DNA of 64,000 bases, from positions 1-64,000 of the forward strand of contig NZ_JAJOMA010000011.1 of assembly GCF_021129235.1 (NCBI RefSeq), read 5' to 3'. Of this stretch, positions 21,794 through 30,169 are shown piece by piece (position 1 is the first letter of the stretch; each line of letters starts with the position of its first letter). Source of the stretch: Kineosporia mesophila (lineage in GTDB: Bacteria > Actinomycetota > Actinomycetes > Actinomycetales > Kineosporiaceae). The notes under the pieces are model-generated. The model did not search any database. It worked only from the letters and a program-made list of their open reading frames with translations, and was not told the DNA's origin. Position numbers and translations under genes: made by a program.

Positions 21794-22168
21794 ATGCCAT
21801 TTCCGCAGGACCCGGTGGCTGGTGATACTGATGATTCGGAAGATGAAAGCGCCTCCACCGCCGAGACCTTCGTCGCCGATGTGCTGGATGTGGTGAACGC
21901 CATCCCGCCGGGGCGCGTCCTGACCTACGGGGACGTGGCCGCACTGATCGGCCGGGGTGGCCCGCGCCAGGTGGGGAAGGTGATGTCCCGGTGGGGCAGC
22001 CTGGCGCCCTGGTGGCGGGTGTTGCGGGCGGGCGGGATGCCGCCCTCCGGGCACGAGGCCCGGGCGCTGGCGCAGTACCGGTCGGAGCGCACGCCGATGC
22101 GGCCGGGCGGCGATCGGGTGGACATGCGGCGGGCGCGCTGGTCTCCCGATGATGACGACGAGAATTGA
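21794..22168 (+). CDS. Alkyltransferase-like protein (ATL, MGMT C-domain family)
   Basis: 124-residue DNA-binding protein of the O6-alkylguanine-DNA alkyltransferase family. It has the helix-turn-helix (IPPGRVLTYGDVAALIG) and Arg-finger region of MGMT, but the active-site PCHR sequence is replaced by PWWRVLRAGG. ATL proteins lack the acceptor Cys; they bind alkylated guanines and channel them to nucleotide excision repair. Damage recognition without alkyl transfer is therefore predicted. An acidic N-terminal extension of about 22 residues precedes the domain. No uvr gene adjoins, but adnAB lies downstream. Confidence 0.9.
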   Translation: MPFPQDPVAGDTDDSEDESASTAETFVADVLDVVNAIPPGRVLTYGDVAALIGRGGPRQVGKVMSRWGSLAPWWRVLRAGGMPPSGHEARALAQYRSERTPMRPGGDRVDMRRARWSPDDDDEN

Positions 22169-22407
22169 GGACGCGGTTGCGCACCTTTCTCGGAGGCGCC
22201 CACCTCTGTGGTGTGTGATCGGGTAATCCCTCGCCTCAGGCCAGGATGTGCCCCGCTGCTGTCTTCCTCGTCCTCGACGGGCATGGCGGCCGGCCTCCGC
22301 AGGCGTGGTCGGTTGTTGTGTATGGCTGCGTCCTGTCGTGTCCGGTGATGTTCTGTCGCGTTCTGTTCGGCCAGGACGCGACCCCGGCATGAGTACGGAC
22401 GGGTGCG

Positions 22408-22459
22408 CGATGTGTACACCTGGTACATCCGGTACCGGGTGTACCAGGTGTACACATCG
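22408..22459. repeat. 52-bp palindrome with GTAC phased every 9 bp
   Basis: The 20-bp left arm (22408-22427) is the exact reverse complement of the right arm (22440-22459). The 12-bp centre contains the palindrome CCGGTACCGG. GTAC occurs five times at exact 9-bp steps, at 22414, 22423, 22432, 22441 and 22450. It can form a cruciform or a long RNA hairpin, or bind a symmetric protein. No T-run follows it, so it is not an ordinary terminator. Confidence 0.9.
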
Positions 22460-22460
22460 T

Positions 22461-22587
22461 CGTCGGCTCTCGTCGGCTCTCGTCGGCTCTCGTCGGCTCT
22501 CGTCGGCTCTCGTCGGCTCTCGTCGGCTCTCGTCGGCTCTCGTCGGCTCTCGTCGGCTCTCGTCGGCTCTCGTCGGCTCTCGTCGGC
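22461..22587. repeat. Tandem array of 10-bp unit CGTCGGCTCT, about 12.7 copies
   Basis: Twelve identical units run from 22461 to 22580, followed by a 7-base partial unit. The array begins one base after the palindrome. There is no unique spacer between units, so this is not CRISPR. Perfect identity suggests recent expansion by slippage. The 10-bp period places each unit on the same DNA face. Confidence 0.95.
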
Positions 22588-22804
22588 AGGCATGGGCAGG
22601 AGTGTGGGCAGGAGTGGGCGTGGCGCGACGGGAGAGTGGTGCGGCAGGGGGCATCCGGCAGGAGGACAGGCCGCCACCGTCCTTCATCCGGCCGACGGGT
22701 GCGTTCCCGGGGAACACCGACCTCCTGGGCGACCTCGGGTGGCGAGACCCGGCGTTCGGTCTGCCCCGGCGCGTCGACCAGGGCCCCGAAGGAGGAGCGG
22801 CGCG

Positions 22805-22851
22805 GATGCGGTGCCGGGGGGATGCGGTGCCGGGGAGATGCGGTGCCGGGG
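22805..22851. repeat. Three direct repeats of a 15-bp unit at 16-bp spacing
   Basis: GATGCGGTGCCGGGG occurs at 22805-22819, 22821-22835 and 22837-22851, each separated by a single base. The last copy ends 84 bp before the adnA start, so the repeats could be operator sites. Confidence 0.85.
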
Positions 22852-22934
22852 ACGGCGACGGCGGTCACGCCGACTGGAGGGGCTGGTTCGTCCGCGGTCC
22901 GACTTGTCGGTGGCTTGTGGTCTGATGTTGGGCC

Positions 22935-25900
22935 ATGAGCACCGCTATCCGTGAGCGTCGTCCGGCCGGGCCCTCCGTCCGGCTGGTCGGTCCCGGGGCG
23001 GGCGGTCGTGATCGGGTGGAGCCGGACCGGTCCCAGGTTCCGCTGACCGGGCTGCGGCAGGGCAGCGGGCCGGTGGTGGTCTTCGGGGCGCCGGGCACGG
23101 GCAAGACCACGATGCTGATCGAGGCGGTCGCGGCCCGCGTGGAACGTGATGGGCTGTCGCCGGGCTCGGTGCTGGCCATCGCCCCGACCCGGGTGGCCTC
23201 GGCACGACTGCGGGAGCGGCTGTCGGCGCGGATCGGGGGCACGGTGCAGGAGCCGATGTCGCGCACCCCGCACTCCTACGCTTTCGGGCTGCTGCACCGG
23301 GCGATGGCGCTCGACGGTTCGCCATCGCCGCGGCTGATCTCCGGCCCCGAGCAGGACCGGATGCTGGCCGACCTGCTCGCCGGGCACGCCGAGGGGCTGG
23401 GGAGCGCGCCGGTCTGGCCCACTTCCACGGGTGACGAGATCCGGCAGCTGCGCGGCTTCCGCGACGAGCTGCGTGACCTGCTGATGCGGGCGGTCGAGCG
23501 CGGGCTCACGCCGGGCGACCTGCGCCGGCTGGGCGAGCTGAACGACCGGCCGGACTGGGTCGCCGCGGCCGAGGTGATGGCCGAATACCTCGACGTCACG
23601 GCGCTGTCGTCCCCGGGCGCCTACGACCCGGCGGGCATCGTCGACGCCGCCACCGAACTGCTGCTCGACGACGAGGAACTGCTCGGGGCCGAGCGCGACC
23701 GGTACCGCCTGGTGGTGGTGGACGACGCGCACGAGCTCACCGTGGCCGCCGAGCACCTGCTGCGGCTGATCGCGGGGGGTGGGCGCGACATCCTCCTGGC
23801 CGGCGACCCGGACTCGGCCACCCAGACCTTCCGCGGGGCCCGGCCGACCGCCCTGGCCGACGCGGTGGATCGGTTCCGGCGGGCCGACGGTTCGTCCGCC
23901 CCGGTCATCACGTTCGGCACGGTGTACCGCCACGGGCCGCAGCTGCGGGCGGTCGCGGGCCGGGTCGCCGAGCGGATCGGGGCGGCGGGCAAGGCTTCCC
24001 ATCGCCTGGTGACCACGAACAGCGCGGCGGGACCGGCGTCGGTCGCGGTCCAGGTCTTCGCCTCACCCGCCCGCGAGGGCGCGTACATCGCCCAGTACCT
24101 GCGGCGTCTGCACCTGGAGCAGCAGGTGCCGTGGCAGCGCATGGCGGTGATCGTGCGGTCCACGAAAGCCACCGCCCCCCTGCGTCGTTCGCTGGGTGCG
24201 GCCGGTGTGCCGGTGGCGATCCCGACGGCCGAGGTTCCGGTGCGTGACGAGATCGCCGTGGTGCCGTTGCGACTGGCCCTGCGCTGCGTGTTGCGGGCGT
24301 CCGAGCTCACCCCCGAGGTGGCCTCCGACCTGCTCACCAGCGCGATCGGGGGCGCCGACGCGATTGCCGTGCGGCGGCTGCGCCAGGCCCTGCGCACCGA
24401 GGAGATCGCCGGTGGGGGCGGCCGGGCCAGCGACGCCCTGCTGGTCGAGGCCCTCGCCGAGCCCTCGCTCCTGGCTGCGCTCGACCCACGGGTATCGGCG
24501 CCGGCCCGGCGCGTCGCCTCGGTGCTCACCGCCGGGCGGGAGGCCGCCGCCGATCCGGACGCCAGCCCGGAGACCGTGCTCTGGGAGATCTGGGACCGCA
24601 CCGGCCTGGCCATCTCCTGGCGCCGCGCCGCCCTCTCCGGCGGTGCCGCGGGCACCCGGGCCGACCGCGACCTTGACTCCGTCATGGCCCTTTTCGAGGC
24701 GGCGGCGCGCTTCACCGACCGTTTCCCGGGGGCCGACGCGCAGGCCTTCCTCGACCATCTCGAGGCCCAGGACGTACCCGCCGACACCCTGGCCGAGCGG
24801 GCCCCCTCCGACGAGGCGGTCGCGCTGGTCACGGCGACCGCGGCGGCCGGGCTGGAGTGGGACGTCGTCGCCGTCGCCGGGGTGCAGGAGGGCGCCTGGC
24901 CCGACCTGCGCCTGCGCGACTCGCTGCTCGGCGGCCAGCGTCTGGCCGAGGTGGTCGACGGTCGCGGCGACCAGGGATTCGTCGCCCAGCGCAAGGCGAT
25001 CCACGACGACGAGCTGCGGCTCTTCCACGTCGCGGTCAGCCGGGCACGCACCCACCTGCTGGTCACGGCGGTGCGCTCGGACGAGGTCATGCCCTCGACG
25101 TTCCTCGACCTGGTCGATCCCGACGGGGTCAGCGGCGACCAGGAGGTGCGGCCCCTGGCCGAGGTGCCGCGCATGATGACGCTGCCCGCCCTGGTCGCGC
25201 AGCTACGGGCCGTGGTCGTCGACCCGCTCACCAAGACGTCCCGGCGGGAAGGCGCGGCCCGCCAGCTGGCCCGGCTCGCGCTCGCCGGTGTGCCCGGGGC
25301 CGACCCGGCGGACTGGTACGGGCTGGCCCCGGTCTCGGTCTCCGCGCCGCTACGGGAATCCCATGCGCTGGTGAAGGTCTCGCCGTCGCAGGTCGACTCG
25401 TTCGACCGCTGCTCGCTGCGCTGGCTGCTCGACGCCTCCGGCGGGCGCCGCACGTCGTCCACGGCCCAGGGGCTCGGCGAGCTGGTGCACGAACTGGCCG
25501 AGGAGGTGCCCGACGGCAACCTGGTCAAGCTGCGCACCCTGCTCGCCGAGCGCTTCGACCGGCTCGGCCTCGGGCAGGGCTGGGTGGCCGACACCGAGCG
25601 CCGGCGCGCGGAGAAGATGGTCGCGCACATGGCCCAGTACGCCGCGCAGGCCCGCGCGGCCGGGCGCACGCTGGTGGCCACCGAGCAGACCCTCCAGGTC
25701 GAGGTGGGCCGCGCGCTCATCCGCGGCAAGGTCGACCGGCTCGAGCAGGACGCGGAGGGCCGGCTCGTCGTCATCGACCTGAAGACGGGCAAGTCGGCGC
25801 CGACCAAGGCCGAGGTGGAACGGCACGCGCAGCTCGGGGTCTATCAGGTGGCGATCGAGGAGGGCGGCCTGGCGCGGGCCGCCGCCCGGGCCGGGCTGAA

Positions 25901-26153
25901 ACTGCCCGAGGGCACGGCCTCCGGTGGTGCGGCCCTGGTGCAGCTGGGGTCGGGCAACAAGAGTGTGCCCGTGCAGCAGCAGCTCCCGCTGTCGAAAGAC
26001 ACCGACCCCCTGTGGGCCTCGAACCTCGTGCAGGGAGCGGCCGAGGGGATGTCCGCCGGGCAGTTCCCGGCCAAAAGCAACAGCATGTGCCGGGTGTGCG
26101 CCCTGCGCCGCGCCTGCCCCGTGCAGAACGAGGGCCGGCAGGTGGGGCGGTGA
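22935..26153 (+). CDS. adnA: AdnA-like helicase-nuclease subunit (UvrD/RecB type)
   Basis: 1072-residue subunit of an AdnAB-type DNA end-resection machine, the actinobacterial counterpart of RecBCD/AddAB. An N-terminal superfamily-1 motor carries Walker A GAPGTGKTT (residues 51-59) and motif II VVVDDAHEL near residue 261. The later motifs VALVTATAAAGLEWDVVAVAG and VAVSRARTHLLV follow. The C-terminal nuclease has IRGKVDRLEQ and LVVIDLKTGKS near residue 947. One Cys near residue 826 (CSLRWLL) with three near 1052 (CRVCALRRAC) fits a 4Fe-4S cluster. The ATG has no strong ribosome binding site. It overlaps adnB by four bases. Confidence 0.93.
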   Translation: MSTAIRERRPAGPSVRLVGPGAGGRDRVEPDRSQVPLTGLRQGSGPVVVFGAPGTGKTTMLIEAVAARVERDGLSPGSVLAIAPTRVASARLRERLSARIGGTVQEPMSRTPHSYAFGLLHRAMALDGSPSPRLISGPEQDRMLADLLAGHAEGLGSAPVWPTSTGDEIRQLRGFRDELRDLLMRAVERGLTPGDLRRLGELNDRPDWVAAAEVMAEYLDVTALSSPGAYDPAGIVDAATELLLDDEELLGAERDRYRLVVVDDAHELTVAAEHLLRLIAGGGRDILLAGDPDSATQTFRGARPTALADAVDRFRRADGSSAPVITFGTVYRHGPQLRAVAGRVAERIGAAGKASHRLVTTNSAAGPASVAVQVFASPAREGAYIAQYLRRLHLEQQVPWQRMAVIVRSTKATAPLRRSLGAAGVPVAIPTAEVPVRDEIAVVPLRLALRCVLRASELTPEVASDLLTSAIGGADAIAVRRLRQALRTEEIAGGGGRASDALLVEALAEPSLLAALDPRVSAPARRVASVLTAGREAAADPDASPETVLWEIWDRTGLAISWRRAALSGGAAGTRADRDLDSVMALFEAAARFTDRFPGADAQAFLDHLEAQDVPADTLAERAPSDEAVALVTATAAAGLEWDVVAVAGVQEGAWPDLRLRDSLLGGQRLAEVVDGRGDQGFVAQRKAIHDDELRLFHVAVSRARTHLLVTAVRSDEVMPSTFLDLVDPDGVSGDQEVRPLAEVPRMMTLPALVAQLRAVVVDPLTKTSRREGAARQLARLALAGVPGADPADWYGLAPVSVSAPLRESHALVKVSPSQVDSFDRCSLRWLLDASGGRRTSSTAQGLGELVHELAEEVPDGNLVKLRTLLAERFDRLGLGQGWVADTERRRAEKMVAHMAQYAAQARAAGRTLVATEQTLQVEVGRALIRGKVDRLEQDAEGRLVVIDLKTGKSAPTKAEVERHAQLGVYQVAIEEGGLARAAARAGLKLPEGTASGGAALVQLGSGNKSVPVQQQLPLSKDTDPLWASNLVQGAAEGMSAGQFPAKSNSMCRVCALRRACPVQNEGRQVGR

Positions 26154-29100
26154 GCGACGAGCAGCTCGGGTTCGACTTCGACATCCCGGTTCTGGAGTCC
26201 CCGCCGCCGGCCTCCCAGCGCCGCACCCGGACCCCTCCGGCCCGCACCATCTCCGCGTCCGAGATCGCCCGCGTCCTCGAGCGTCCCGAACCCACTCCCG
26301 AGCAGGTGGCCGTCATCGAGGCACCGCTCGAGCCGATGCTGGTCGTGGCCGGCGCCGGGTCGGGCAAGACCGAGACCATGGCCGCGCGGGTGGTGTGGCT
26401 GGTGGCCAACGGCATGGTCGAGCCCGACGAGGTGCTGGGCCTGACCTTCACCCGCAAGGCCGCCGGTGAGCTGGCCGAGCGCATCCGGGCCCGGCTGCGG
26501 GCCCTGCACCGCAAGGGGCTCACCCCGGAGTCCCGGCCGGTCACGGTCTCCACCTACCACGCCTACGCCGCCGCGGTGCTGGGCGACCACGCGCTGCGAC
26601 TCGGGATCGAGCCCGGGGCAAGGCTTCTCGGGGAGGCCGGCAGCTGGCAGCTGGTCGACGAACTGGTCGAGCGCTGGGACGGCGACATGACCGGTGTCGA
26701 GCTCACGCGCAGCACCGTGGTCGACGCCGTGCTGGCACTGGCCGGGGAGATCGCCGAGCACCTGCTCGACCCCGGCCGGATCGACGCTGTGGCCGAGAGC
26801 ATCGTGGAACGCATCGGTGAGCTGCCGAAGAACCCGGGCGATCCACTGCCGGGCAAGCCGAAGGCCGACGTCAAGGCGATCGGGCAGCGCATGCAGGCCC
26901 GCCGGGCCCTGATCCCGCTGGTCGACGCCTACCAGCGGCGCAAGCGCGAGCAGGAGGTGCTCGACTTCGGCGACCAGGTGGCGCTCGCGGCCCAGCTGGC
27001 GAGCACGGTGCCGGACGTCGGCGAGGTGGAGCGGCAGCGGTTCCGGGTGGTGCTGCTCGACGAGTACCAGGACACCAGCCACGCCCAGGTGGTGCTGCTG
27101 CAGGAGCTGTTCGGCGGTGGGCACCCGGTGATCGCGGTCGGCGACCCGCACCAGTCGATCTACGCCTGGCGGGGTGCCTCAGCCGGCAACCTGCAGCGCT
27201 TCGGCCTGGACTTCCCGGCCGCCGACGGGGGCCGGGCGGCCACGCGTCACCTGTCCACCAGCTGGCGCAACGACCTGGCCATCCTCGCCGTGGCCAACCA
27301 GCTCGCCGATCCGCTGCGGCGCACACCGATCTGGGGCGACCCCGACCTCACCGTCGACGTGCAGCCCCTGACGGCCCGGCCCGGCGCCGGGCCGGGGCGG
27401 GTGCGCCTGGAGTGGCACGGCACGCTGGAGGAAGAGGCCAAGGCGATCGCCGACATCGCCCAGTACGCCTGGCTGCACCCGAAGGCCGACGGCACTCGCC
27501 AGTCCGTGGCGGTGCTCTGCCGGGCCCGGGCGCAGTTCCCGCTGATCGAGGCCGCGCTGCGGGGCCGCGACCTGCCGGTCGAGGTGATCGGCCTGGGCGG
27601 TCTCCTGCACGTGCCCGAGATCGCCGACCTACGGGCGGCTCTCGAGGTGGTGCACGACCCGACCCGCGGTGATGCCCTGATGCGGCTGCTCACCGGCCCG
27701 GCCTGGCGCATCGGCCCTCGCGACCTGGACGGCCTGGGCGCCTGGTCGCGCGAGCTGGCCGCGAGCTGGCGGGGTGAGAACGGGCGCCTCGACGTTCCGG
27801 CCGGTCTGAACGGTGTGACCCTGCAGGTCGACGTCGTCGACGACCAGTCCATCGTCGACGCCGTCGACGCCCTGCCCGAGCCCGGCTGGGAAGGTGCCCA
27901 GGGGCAGCAGATCTCGGCCGAAGGACGGCGCCGCCTGGAACGCCTGGCCGGACTGCTGCGCGGTCTGCGCAGTCGGCTTGCCCTGCCACTGCCCGACCTG
28001 GTGCTGGAGGCCGAGCGCGCCCTCCTGCTCGACGTGGAGGTGGCGGCCCAGCCGAACCGTTCCCCGGCGGCGGCCCGTGCCCACCTCGACGCCTTCGCCG
28101 ATGTTGCGGCGCAGTTCGCCGACGGCGGTGATCGTCCCACCCTGGGCACGTTCCTGGGCTGGCTCACCGCTGCCGAAGACCGTGAGCGCGGCCTCGACAC
28201 CGGGGTGGTCGAACAGCACGAGGACGCGATCCAGCTGCTCACCGTGCACGGCTCGAAAGGCCTGGAGTGGGACGTGGTCGCGGTCTGCGGCATGGTCGAG
28301 GGAACCTTCCCGGCCGGGCCGTCGGGCAACGCGCCGAAACGGTCGAAGGGCTGGCTGACCGACATCGGCGCGGTGCCGTTCCCGCTGCGGGGCGACGCCG
28401 CCGGGTTGCCCCAGTGGAACTACCAGGCCGCCACCACGCAGGACGAGCTGGAGATTGAGCTCAAGCACTTCATGGACCACTGCGGTGAGCACGAGGTCGC
28501 CGAGGAACGCCGCCTGGCCTACGTGGCCGCCACCCGGGCCAAGGACTCGCTGCTGCTCACCGGGGCGGTCTGGGGCGACGGGAAGAAGCCCCGCGAACCC
28601 TCGCGGTTCCTGGTGGAGATCCGGGAACTACTGCAGCAGAACCAGAACGCTGAGCTGCCGATCGCGATCGGGCTGTGGAGCGACCAGCCCGACGAGGGAG
28701 CCGAGAACCCGCGCGAGATCGAGGGCCGGATGGCGATCTGGCCCGACCCGCTCGAGGGCCGGCGCGAAACCGTCGAGGACGGCGCCGAACTCGTGCGCCT
28801 GGCGATCGAGGCACTGACCGGCGAGCGCCGGGCGACCTACGGCACGAGCCGAATGGCAGACGCACATCACGACGATCGCGGTGCGGTCGAGGCGGGTGCG
28901 TCGGAGTCGGGCACGACGGTGACCCGGGCGACCGAGTTCGGGGTCACCGAGCTCGGCTGGGCCCCGGCGGAGGAGTGGTCACCGCTGGACAGCTGGGCGC
29001 CGGACGACGAGTTCGAGCCCCCGCCGGATGATTTCGTACCGATCGATGCTCAGGACGATGCAGTCGGTACCGGTGGTGGGGTGCAGTCGGGGGGTGAGGT

Positions 29101-30169
29101 GCAAGCCGGTGACGGCCCGCTCGTGGGTGACGTGGTGTGGTCCGGCCATGAGGTGGGCACCGGTGGTGGGGTGCAGCCGGGGGGTGAGGTGCGAGCCGGT
29201 GACGCCCCGCTCGTGGGTGACGTGGTGTGGCCCGGCCATGAGGTGGGCACCGGTGGTGGGGGGCCGGCCGGTCAAGGGACGCAGACGGATGACGACGCGC
29301 GAGCCGGCGGTGGGGGGCGTCGTGACGGCGGGGTGCGGAGCGGTGACCAGGGAGGGGCTGACCGGGCAACCGCGACCGGCGGCAGCTCGTGGGCCGACGA
29401 CAATTCCGGGCCGTTGATTTCCGATGAGCCCATCGCCCCCGGCCCACGAATTGCCGCCCGTCGTGCGTCCGTCCTCGAGCCCCGCACCACCGAGGAGGCC
29501 GACTGGGCCAGAGAGGTCGAGGTTCTGCTGGCCGAGCGGGATGCCCAGGCGAGCGGTGAGCTGACCGTGCGGCTGCCCACGCACCTGTCCGCGTCCCGGG
29601 CCGTGGCCCTGGCCGCCGACCGTCAGGCGCTGGCCGAGCGGCTGCGGCGTCCGATGCCGCAGCAGCCGAGCCCGCACGCCCGCCGGGGCAGTGCCTTCCA
29701 CGCCTGGCTGGAGCGCCGCTTCGGGTCGGCGGCCCTGGTCGACATCGACGACCTGCCCGGCGCCGGGGACGCCGACCTGGACGACGCGAAACTGGAGACG
29801 CTGCAGGCGAACTTCCTGGCCTCGGAGTGGGCCGACCGCACGGCCGAGGCGGTCGAGGTCAACATCGAGACGCCGGTCGCCGGCGTGGTGCTGCGAGGCC
29901 GGATCGACGCGGTCTTCCGCCGGCCGGACGGCGGCTGGGACGTGGTCGACTGGAAGACCGGCCGCCCACCCGGCCACGAGCAGATGCGGGCGCTCTCGGT
30001 GCAGCTCGCGGTCTACCGGCTGGCCTGGTCGAAGCTGCACCGGGTGCCCCTCGACCAGGTCAGCGCGGCCTTCTTCTACGCCTCGACCGGCCGGACCGTG
30101 CGCCCCGTGGACCTGTGGGACGAGACCGCGCTGGAAGAGCTGCTGACGACGATCGCGGTCAGTCCGTGA
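26150..30169 (+). CDS. adnB: AdnB-like helicase-nuclease subunit (UvrD/RecB type)
   Basis: 1339-residue partner of AdnA, presumably the lead motor. Superfamily-1 motifs are complete: VAGAGSGKT near residue 67, LTFTRKAAGELAERI, VLLDEYQDTSHAQ near residue 303, VGDPHQSIYAWRGA, LSTSWRN, LTVHGSKGLEWDVVAV and YVAATRAKDSLLL. The C-terminal nuclease shows RGSAFHAWLERRFG, GRIDAVFRRPD and DVVDWKTGR near residue 1265. Between motor and nuclease lies an unusual Gly/Val/Asp-rich linker of about 150 residues with a 30-residue repeat. The GTG start at 26150 overlaps the adnA stop. Its end overlaps the convergent RTX-like gene by 11 bp. Confidence 0.93.
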   Translation: MSDEQLGFDFDIPVLESPPPASQRRTRTPPARTISASEIARVLERPEPTPEQVAVIEAPLEPMLVVAGAGSGKTETMAARVVWLVANGMVEPDEVLGLTFTRKAAGELAERIRARLRALHRKGLTPESRPVTVSTYHAYAAAVLGDHALRLGIEPGARLLGEAGSWQLVDELVERWDGDMTGVELTRSTVVDAVLALAGEIAEHLLDPGRIDAVAESIVERIGELPKNPGDPLPGKPKADVKAIGQRMQARRALIPLVDAYQRRKREQEVLDFGDQVALAAQLASTVPDVGEVERQRFRVVLLDEYQDTSHAQVVLLQELFGGGHPVIAVGDPHQSIYAWRGASAGNLQRFGLDFPAADGGRAATRHLSTSWRNDLAILAVANQLADPLRRTPIWGDPDLTVDVQPLTARPGAGPGRVRLEWHGTLEEEAKAIADIAQYAWLHPKADGTRQSVAVLCRARAQFPLIEAALRGRDLPVEVIGLGGLLHVPEIADLRAALEVVHDPTRGDALMRLLTGPAWRIGPRDLDGLGAWSRELAASWRGENGRLDVPAGLNGVTLQVDVVDDQSIVDAVDALPEPGWEGAQGQQISAEGRRRLERLAGLLRGLRSRLALPLPDLVLEAERALLLDVEVAAQPNRSPAAARAHLDAFADVAAQFADGGDRPTLGTFLGWLTAAEDRERGLDTGVVEQHEDAIQLLTVHGSKGLEWDVVAVCGMVEGTFPAGPSGNAPKRSKGWLTDIGAVPFPLRGDAAGLPQWNYQAATTQDELEIELKHFMDHCGEHEVAEERRLAYVAATRAKDSLLLTGAVWGDGKKPREPSRFLVEIRELLQQNQNAELPIAIGLWSDQPDEGAENPREIEGRMAIWPDPLEGRRETVEDGAELVRLAIEALTGERRATYGTSRMADAHHDDRGAVEAGASESGTTVTRATEFGVTELGWAPAEEWSPLDSWAPDDEFEPPPDDFVPIDAQDDAVGTGGGVQSGGEVQAGDGPLVGDVVWSGHEVGTGGGVQPGGEVRAGDAPLVGDVVWPGHEVGTGGGGPAGQGTQTDDDARAGGGGRRDGGVRSGDQGGADRATATGGSSWADDNSGPLISDEPIAPGPRIAARRASVLEPRTTEEADWAREVEVLLAERDAQASGELTVRLPTHLSASRAVALAADRQALAERLRRPMPQQPSPHARRGSAFHAWLERRFGSAALVDIDDLPGAGDADLDDAKLETLQANFLASEWADRTAEAVEVNIETPVAGVVLRGRIDAVFRRPDGGWDVVDWKTGRPPGHEQMRALSVQLAVYRLAWSKLHRVPLDQVSAAFFYASTGRTVRPVDLWDETALEELLTTIAVSP
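29069..29261 (+). repeat. 90-bp tandem repeat inside adnB linker
   Basis: Two consecutive 90-bp copies start at 29069 and 29159, with a 13-bp start of a third at 29249. Each begins ACCGGTGGTGGGG. The period is a multiple of three, so it encodes a 30-residue repeat containing GTGGGVQ, GGEV, AGD, PLVGDVVW and GHEV. Confidence 0.9.

Follow-up and report, generated by a model that had tools for sequence, protein, structure and literature searches.

A dispersed family of palindromes with 9-bp-phased GTAC boxes in Kineosporia, with a probable relationship to the operator of a Phd/YefM-type antitoxin

A palindrome upstream of a putative adnAB gene pair in Kineosporia mesophila is a real feature that belongs to a genome-wide family and is not an element of adnAB. 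The reading that we favour, at a probability of roughly 0.6, is that it represents a dispersed operator copy for a Phd/YefM-type antitoxin or for some protein sharing its site preference, as suggested by comparison of sequences within the genus. Type II antitoxins are usually viewed as local autorepressors; if this reading is true, the presence in each genome of about 40 conserved sites resembling operators, most of them closer to the ends of genes than to their starts, would point to either a chromosome-wide antitoxin role or a proliferating operator. In combination with fast-turning arrays, the dispersed palindromes would also offer a natural system for the origin of minisatellites in bacteria. 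No description of a dispersed family of this kind was found in the open-licence literature, nor was anything found there on dispersed antitoxin palindromes or on the GTGTACAC motif in connection with Phd; the accessible portions of papers on repeated antitoxin operators, antitoxin ChIP-seq regulons, and palindromes with tandem repeats held nothing of use.

The window, i.e. the whole stretch of 64,000 nucleotides that was analysed, contains the near-perfect palindrome at 22408..22459 (52 bp, no strand assigned). It is made up of two arms of 26 nt with a spacer of 0 and a complementarity of 96%; the outermost 20 bp of either arm are exact and the single mismatched pair lies closer to the centre. 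Five GTAC boxes, which are probably contact boxes of the binding protein, span 22414..22453 (again with no strand assigned) and begin at 22414, 22423, 22432, 22441 and 22450, i.e. at exact 9-bp steps. A search of the window for three GTAC spaced 9 bp apart returned 3 matches, versus 0 in 100 shuffles. Recomputation thus bore out the sequence-only reading in its description of the locus, namely a palindrome with 20-bp exact arms, five GTAC at 9-bp steps and an adjacent tandem array.

BLAST of the segment 22395-22620 against 58 genomes recovered matches in six: many in the genome to which the window belongs (G000) and in its close relative G005, a smaller number in G004 and G001, and in G012 and G027 a single one, which in both cases concerns the array part of the query. 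Five GTAC at exact 9-bp steps were counted 27 times in G000, 32 times in G005 and once in G001, with none in G002, G003 and G004; one of the 32 matches (G005 C10:180457) is a direct 9-bp repeat and was excluded, which leaves at least 31 well-preserved copies in that genome. The search for other GTAC-phased palindromes in the genome, which the sequence-only reading had suggested, brings the family to 38 places in G000, that of adnA included, namely 35 with GTGTACA...TGTACAC ends and three more without these exact ends. The same ends were found 39 times in G005, 11 in G004, six in G001, once in G002 and never in G003, and the reversed control of the search gave 0 throughout the taxonomic family (13 genomes); the single matches in G002 and in G008 have lengths that are not phased. 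Hence, the family comprises 38 copies in G000 and 31-39 in G005, with looser forms in G004 and G001, and for the analyses below 38, 31, 23 and 13 places, respectively, were fetched from G000, G005, G004 and G001 (105 loci). The consensus of the G000 and G005 copies is a perfect palindrome of 54 bp; most copies end in TGTACA or GTGTACAC on both sides, and the central 40 bp are perfectly palindromic in 20 of the 32 G000 and 25 of the 31 G005 copies examined. Among 296 genomes of the phylum, a sample of a larger group, five phased GTAC were detected in four besides G000 (G120, G129, G161 and G182). None of these matches is a perfect palindrome and most are direct 9-bp repeats, which are perhaps coding. 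Coding repeats were rejected as the origin of the 9-bp period in the adnA-type element. Carriage by viruses or plasmids was likewise rejected within the sampled sequences, as 0 viral contigs contained the exact 22-mer and, as far as sampled, there was no plasmid match.

The looser copies in G004 and G001 reveal which aspects of the element are retained. The lengths of TGTACA-ended matches are 24, 33 or 42 bp, corresponding to 3, 4 or 5 boxes, in 15 of the 18 cases from G004 and 11 of the 15 from G001 (26/33 together), with backwards-read controls of the search yielding 0 in both genomes; one of the 11 phased-length matches of G001 (33 bp, C56:220301) breaks the grammar internally. Every third base is nearly fixed in the seven 42-bp sites (mean information 1.76 versus 0.97 and 0.90 bits), and the same three-base pattern recurs in the fifteen 33-bp sites (1.43 versus 0.41 and 0.62), these values being rough at n=7 and n=15. 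The grammar count covers 25 sites: the off-length matches (3/18 in G004 and 4/15 in G001) and G001 C56:220301 were excluded, the G001 C79 site was taken as a 33-bp form, and the three 24-bp sites enter none of the statistics. Pairing between the arms of the seven 42-bp sites holds in 77 of 105 pairs against 67.6 expected (permutation p 0.02), with the excess stemming mainly from two column pairs. This grammar appears to fit repeated protein contacts in each half-site better than an RNA stem, and arm-to-arm correction may occur. Two G000 sites of odd length, L195 (2000-2056) and L196 (2000-2047), have 57 and 48 bp between their ends and keep the grammar in the arms, with a broken centre in which the phase is lost. 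At the orthologous places L073 and L117 (both 2000-2040), the G000 variant is fully symmetric and the G005 one has one arm of the usual type, a difference that looks like arm correction or conversion among copies.

The element is conserved well beyond its surroundings. In 19 orthologous pairs from G000 and G005 it is identical at 1000 of 1026 positions (97.5%), versus 3839 of 6965 (55%) in the intergenic and 1764 of 2307 in the called coding parts of the flanks with gaps counted as differences; these are the pairs that remain of 21 after exclusion of L091/L124, which is not alignable at the element, and L079/L111, which differs by one 9-bp unit. When gaps are ignored and coding sequence is included (20 pairs), the flanks are 85.9% and the element 97.7% identical. 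The changes are distributed as 2/380 in the GTAC boxes, 13/380 in the spacers and 11/266 in the outer bases. Homogenisation among copies could add to this conservation, but alone it would not spare the boxes. Eight G000 places were sought in G005: L075 keeps the element, L074, L088 and L093 retain one end each, L080 retains a few bases, L063 and L082 nothing, and at L070 the alignment stops short of the site. The one-end remnants look like losses by deletion. Comparison of flanks by blastn identified two places common to G000 and G004 (one on a single side), two common to G001 and G004 (one of which is the operon described below) and none common to G000 and G001; given how few places are shared, the copies are inferred to have spread separately in each lineage.

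The link to an antitoxin comes from a toxin-antitoxin operon with the same grammar at its start. One antitoxin gene of the palindrome-linked subfamily is present in each of G000 (C35:34666), G001, G004 and G002, and none was found in G003 or in G005, where the best hit of the profile search had an E of 0.0115. The antitoxins of G000, G001 and G004 match the Pfam family PhdYeFM_antitox, the ORFs following them in G000 and G004 match ParE_toxin (ParE/RelE-type), and tblastn places the toxin downstream of the antitoxin in G001 and G002 as well. The phased boxes stop at, or within about 10 bp of, the antitoxin start codon, and at all four operons the four-box GTAC scores are high, being 16, 15, 14 and 14 of 16 in G000, G001, G004 and G002, as against 8-10 of 16 near the 21 remaining PF02604 genes in the six genomes. 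The position of the operator relative to the start codon is constant in G000, G001 and G004, and the genes flanking the G000 operon differ from those flanking the operons of G001 and G004; because its position is constant despite these unrelated flanking genes in G000, the operator site belongs to the operon. In G005, no match was obtained either for a piece of the gene next to the G000 operon. In G002 (L202, upstream of position 1501) the operator has its two halves in reversed order. Among the loci examined, this antitoxin and toxin subfamily is present at those operons only and not beside the adnA copy. Phd/YefM-type hits of other subfamilies lie about 1 kb or less from copies at G005 C1:222487-222636 (L224) and G000 C1:10170-10328 (L235), respectively above and below the Pfam cut-off, and neither has phased boxes upstream (scores 8 and 9).

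Outside the genus, 12 relatives of the antitoxin in named genomes have box scores of 8-12, with subfamilies not separated; the relative from Streptomyces sp. NRRL F-6131 has TGTACACCTGGCACGCTTCGTACA ahead of its start, a clearly similar site. PMC7730913 describes YefM operators as paired palindromes with a TGTACA core, 12 bp apart, and PMC3303803 reports related boxes at 12 bp for YefM/YoeB of Streptomyces. The family thus resembles the operators of Escherichia coli yefM-yoeB, enterococcal axe-txe and Streptomyces yefM/yoeB in having more than one TGTACA-type palindromic box per site, and in the genus its grammar likewise marks the beginning of a Phd/YefM-toxin operon; it differs from them in stepping by 9 rather than 12 bp, in using 3-5 boxes and in having about 40 copies off the operon.

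On the antitoxin-operator reading, antitoxin dimers, with or without toxin, would occupy consecutive GTAC-type boxes at 9-bp intervals, the boxes being symmetrical about the centre, and 3-5 of them would form one cooperative site. Occupancy at the toxin-antitoxin operon would lead to autorepression, and at the scattered copies near 3' ends it would create a roadblock, an anchor or a sink for the antitoxin rather than a promoter switch. The sequence-only reading had proposed either the binding of a multimeric protein or a cruciform: the former would now be the likeliest interpretation, given the grammar shared with the operon and the conservation, while the better retention of box grammar than of arm pairing in the looser species makes the latter possible but less likely. 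Several observations go against the involvement of the antitoxin. First, G005 keeps its copies, at least 31 of them, and the antitoxin subfamily was not found there. These palindromes show no decay, which is the chief result against a present-day dependence on that antitoxin; either recent loss, omission from the assembly or another protein using the sites would explain the gap. Second, G002 has the operon and no scattered sites of the forms searched, i.e. GTAC-box or TGTACA-end patterns only, which sites in reversed order could escape. The step of 9 rather than the published 12 bp, the failure of box scores to separate subfamilies outside the genus and the covariation of some variable positions between the arms also weigh against it. 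More tentatively, and with less than even odds, one may envisage that the operator left the operon several times within the genus to give rise to conserved intergenic sites, on which the antitoxin or an heir protein would act as a chromosome-wide roadblock, anchor or sink, with occupied palindromes serving as hot spots for the birth of arrays.

The conserved G005 sites favour a different protein, for instance one of nucleoid organization or segregation, as the ligand of the scattered copies, with the antitoxin operon merely using a similar motif. Systems such as parS, KOPS and matS likewise place many copies of one short protein-binding site on a chromosome; the present family is longer, modular in 9-bp steps, confined to part of one genus, intergenic and nearer to 3' ends. 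The location of the copies, unlike that of usual operators, also agrees with such a protein. All 65 G000 and G005 copies were intergenic with the first gene caller, and 93 of the 105 places fall in gaps flanked on both sides by genes called with an improved caller; the other 12 loci are outside the gap counts, and two of them, L170 (which is the antitoxin) and L179, overlap a called gene. This caller is crude (coding density 0.805, with the gene at 21794 missed), so that some gaps are overestimated, that of adnA included. The median distance to 3' ends is 148 bp for the copies (n=105) versus 460 for points in control gaps, that to starts is 303 bp (n=81) versus 314, and the gap is convergent in 28 of the 93 cases with the element, compared with 25 of the 200 controls (p 0.0005). 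Promoter operators are expected to show a bias opposite to this 3'-end preference. Nevertheless, we consider a different protein an unlikely explanation, since the operon is present in three of the four genomes that have scattered sites, and the grammar marks every one of its four occurrences and is absent from all 21 other Phd/YefM genes in the genus.

REP/BIME elements, with their RAYT transposases, are short dispersed intergenic palindromes with a 3'-end preference, and the family resembles them in being short, palindromic, dispersed, intergenic and close to 3' ends. A parasite of the REP or MITE kind, i.e. a short hairpin copied by a transposase and devoid of a binding function, would further account for the places being mostly unshared among G000, G004 and G001, and for none having been found in G003. 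However, the Y1/RAYT transposase domain (PF01797) has one match in G004 and no match in G000, G005, G001, G002 and G003, i.e. it is present in 1 of 6 congeners; the family has a 9-bp box grammar and a binding-site-like conservation that far exceeds that of the flanks and is concentrated in the GTAC boxes; and the partial ends at the eight G000 places sought in G005 resemble deletion rather than clean empty sites. This renders a parasitic origin improbable, and a REP/RAYT element proper, whose cognate Y1 transposase is missing in G000, was rejected even though a dispersed intergenic palindrome would fit one.

Transcription termination in both directions, or formation of a 3' RNA stem, is still less probable, although the perfect central palindromes and the greater proximity to 3' ends than to starts could be invoked in its favour: a scan of the adnA copy (22170-22950) for terminator-like sites, defined as a GC-rich stem with a T run, gave 0, on which ground a terminator was rejected; moreover, the surplus of pairing in the seven G004 and G001 sites is traceable mainly to two column pairs, and the element is present at the start of the antitoxin gene too.

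At the locus itself, the gap is preceded by an alkyltransferase-like gene at 21794..22168 on the plus strand (6-O-methylguanine methyltransferase DNA-binding domain, Pfam PF01035) and followed on the same strand by genes at 22935..26153 and 26150..30169, each with a UvrD helicase and a PD-(D/E)XK nuclease, which from this domain layout we take to be AdnA and AdnB. A 90-bp tandem repeat of about 2.5 copies lies within the adnB reading frame at 29069-29294 of the window. Alignment with G005 shows that the conserved upstream part is the stretch of about 80 bp directly before the adnA start (22853..22934, plus strand), which may hold the adnA promoter; no sigma-70-like consensus site was found in 22170-22950. 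That the palindrome regulates adnA in cis, with the 10-bp array tuning its effect, is an idea of the sequence-only reading that can be set aside as extremely improbable, for despite its retention at the G005 adnA gap (53/54 identical) the element recurs at 37 other places whose neighbours have no common theme, lies 475 bp upstream of where adnA begins, within a weakly conserved stretch outside the conserved one, and has no array beside it in G005. The 68 neighbour genes listed for G000 (40 scanned, 36 with a Pfam match) contain one repair name, RecO, among those scanned, so that neither a repair role nor adnA-specific regulation, which was rejected given the copies elsewhere in the genome and their themeless flanking genes, is borne out.

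The 10-bp tandem array directly adjoins the palindrome at 22460..22587 (no strand assigned), with 12.8 copies at 100% identity and no mismatch, i.e. 12 perfect units plus 7 nt; in the register first used the unit is CGTCGGCTCT, repeated 12 times over 22461-22580 and followed by 7 nt. The copy number may be inexact, as the G000 assembly is a draft of 61 contigs. Of the two components whose presence in relatives the sequence-only reading had made decisive, only the palindrome is kept in G005, the array being missing at the orthologous adnA-gap site in the alignment, and this absence supports the earlier view that the array is young. A second small array in the same gap, at 22805..22852 (no strand assigned), consists of three copies of a 16-bp unit that was not found at the corresponding G005 site. 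The 10-bp array would best be seen as separate and young, having arisen locally by strand slippage or repair, events that the palindrome, or the protein occupying it, would favour.

Arrays are in fact enriched near the palindromes. With an array defined by a period of at least 5, at least 2.5 copies and at least 35 bp, they occur in 35 of the 93 element gaps, which come from four genomes, versus 10 of the 199 control gaps, taken from 384 kb of G000 (p 5e-12), in 11 of 31 element gaps when the comparison is confined to G000 (p 7e-6), and, among G000 gaps of 250-900 bp, in 7 of 20 with the element versus 4 of 62 (p 0.003). They make up 3% of the bases in the first 50 bp from the element, 11-13% at 50-200 bp and 5% beyond 500 bp, as against 1.5% in control gaps (2.6% in convergent ones); among the listed arrays, that of adnA lies nearest to its own palindrome. 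The units vary between places, and of the 25 near-element arrays in 22 orthologous pairs only one has a unit that recurs in the partner genome, whereas the palindrome persists. The association of palindrome and array remarked on at adnA thus holds statistically for arrays in general, and it does not hold for the particular 10-bp unit. Most simply, the palindrome, or a protein bound to it, would promote slippage or repair synthesis nearby; alternatively, arrays and palindromes may just be tolerated in the same gaps. Other copies have arrays of their own with unrelated units: a 10-bp unit, GCCGGCGCAG, at L063 (1889-1982), the 6-bp GCCCCT at L066 (2072-2173), a 9-bp unit, CAGGTGAGC, at L197 (2093-2283), and the 6-bp CAACAG at L244 of G005.
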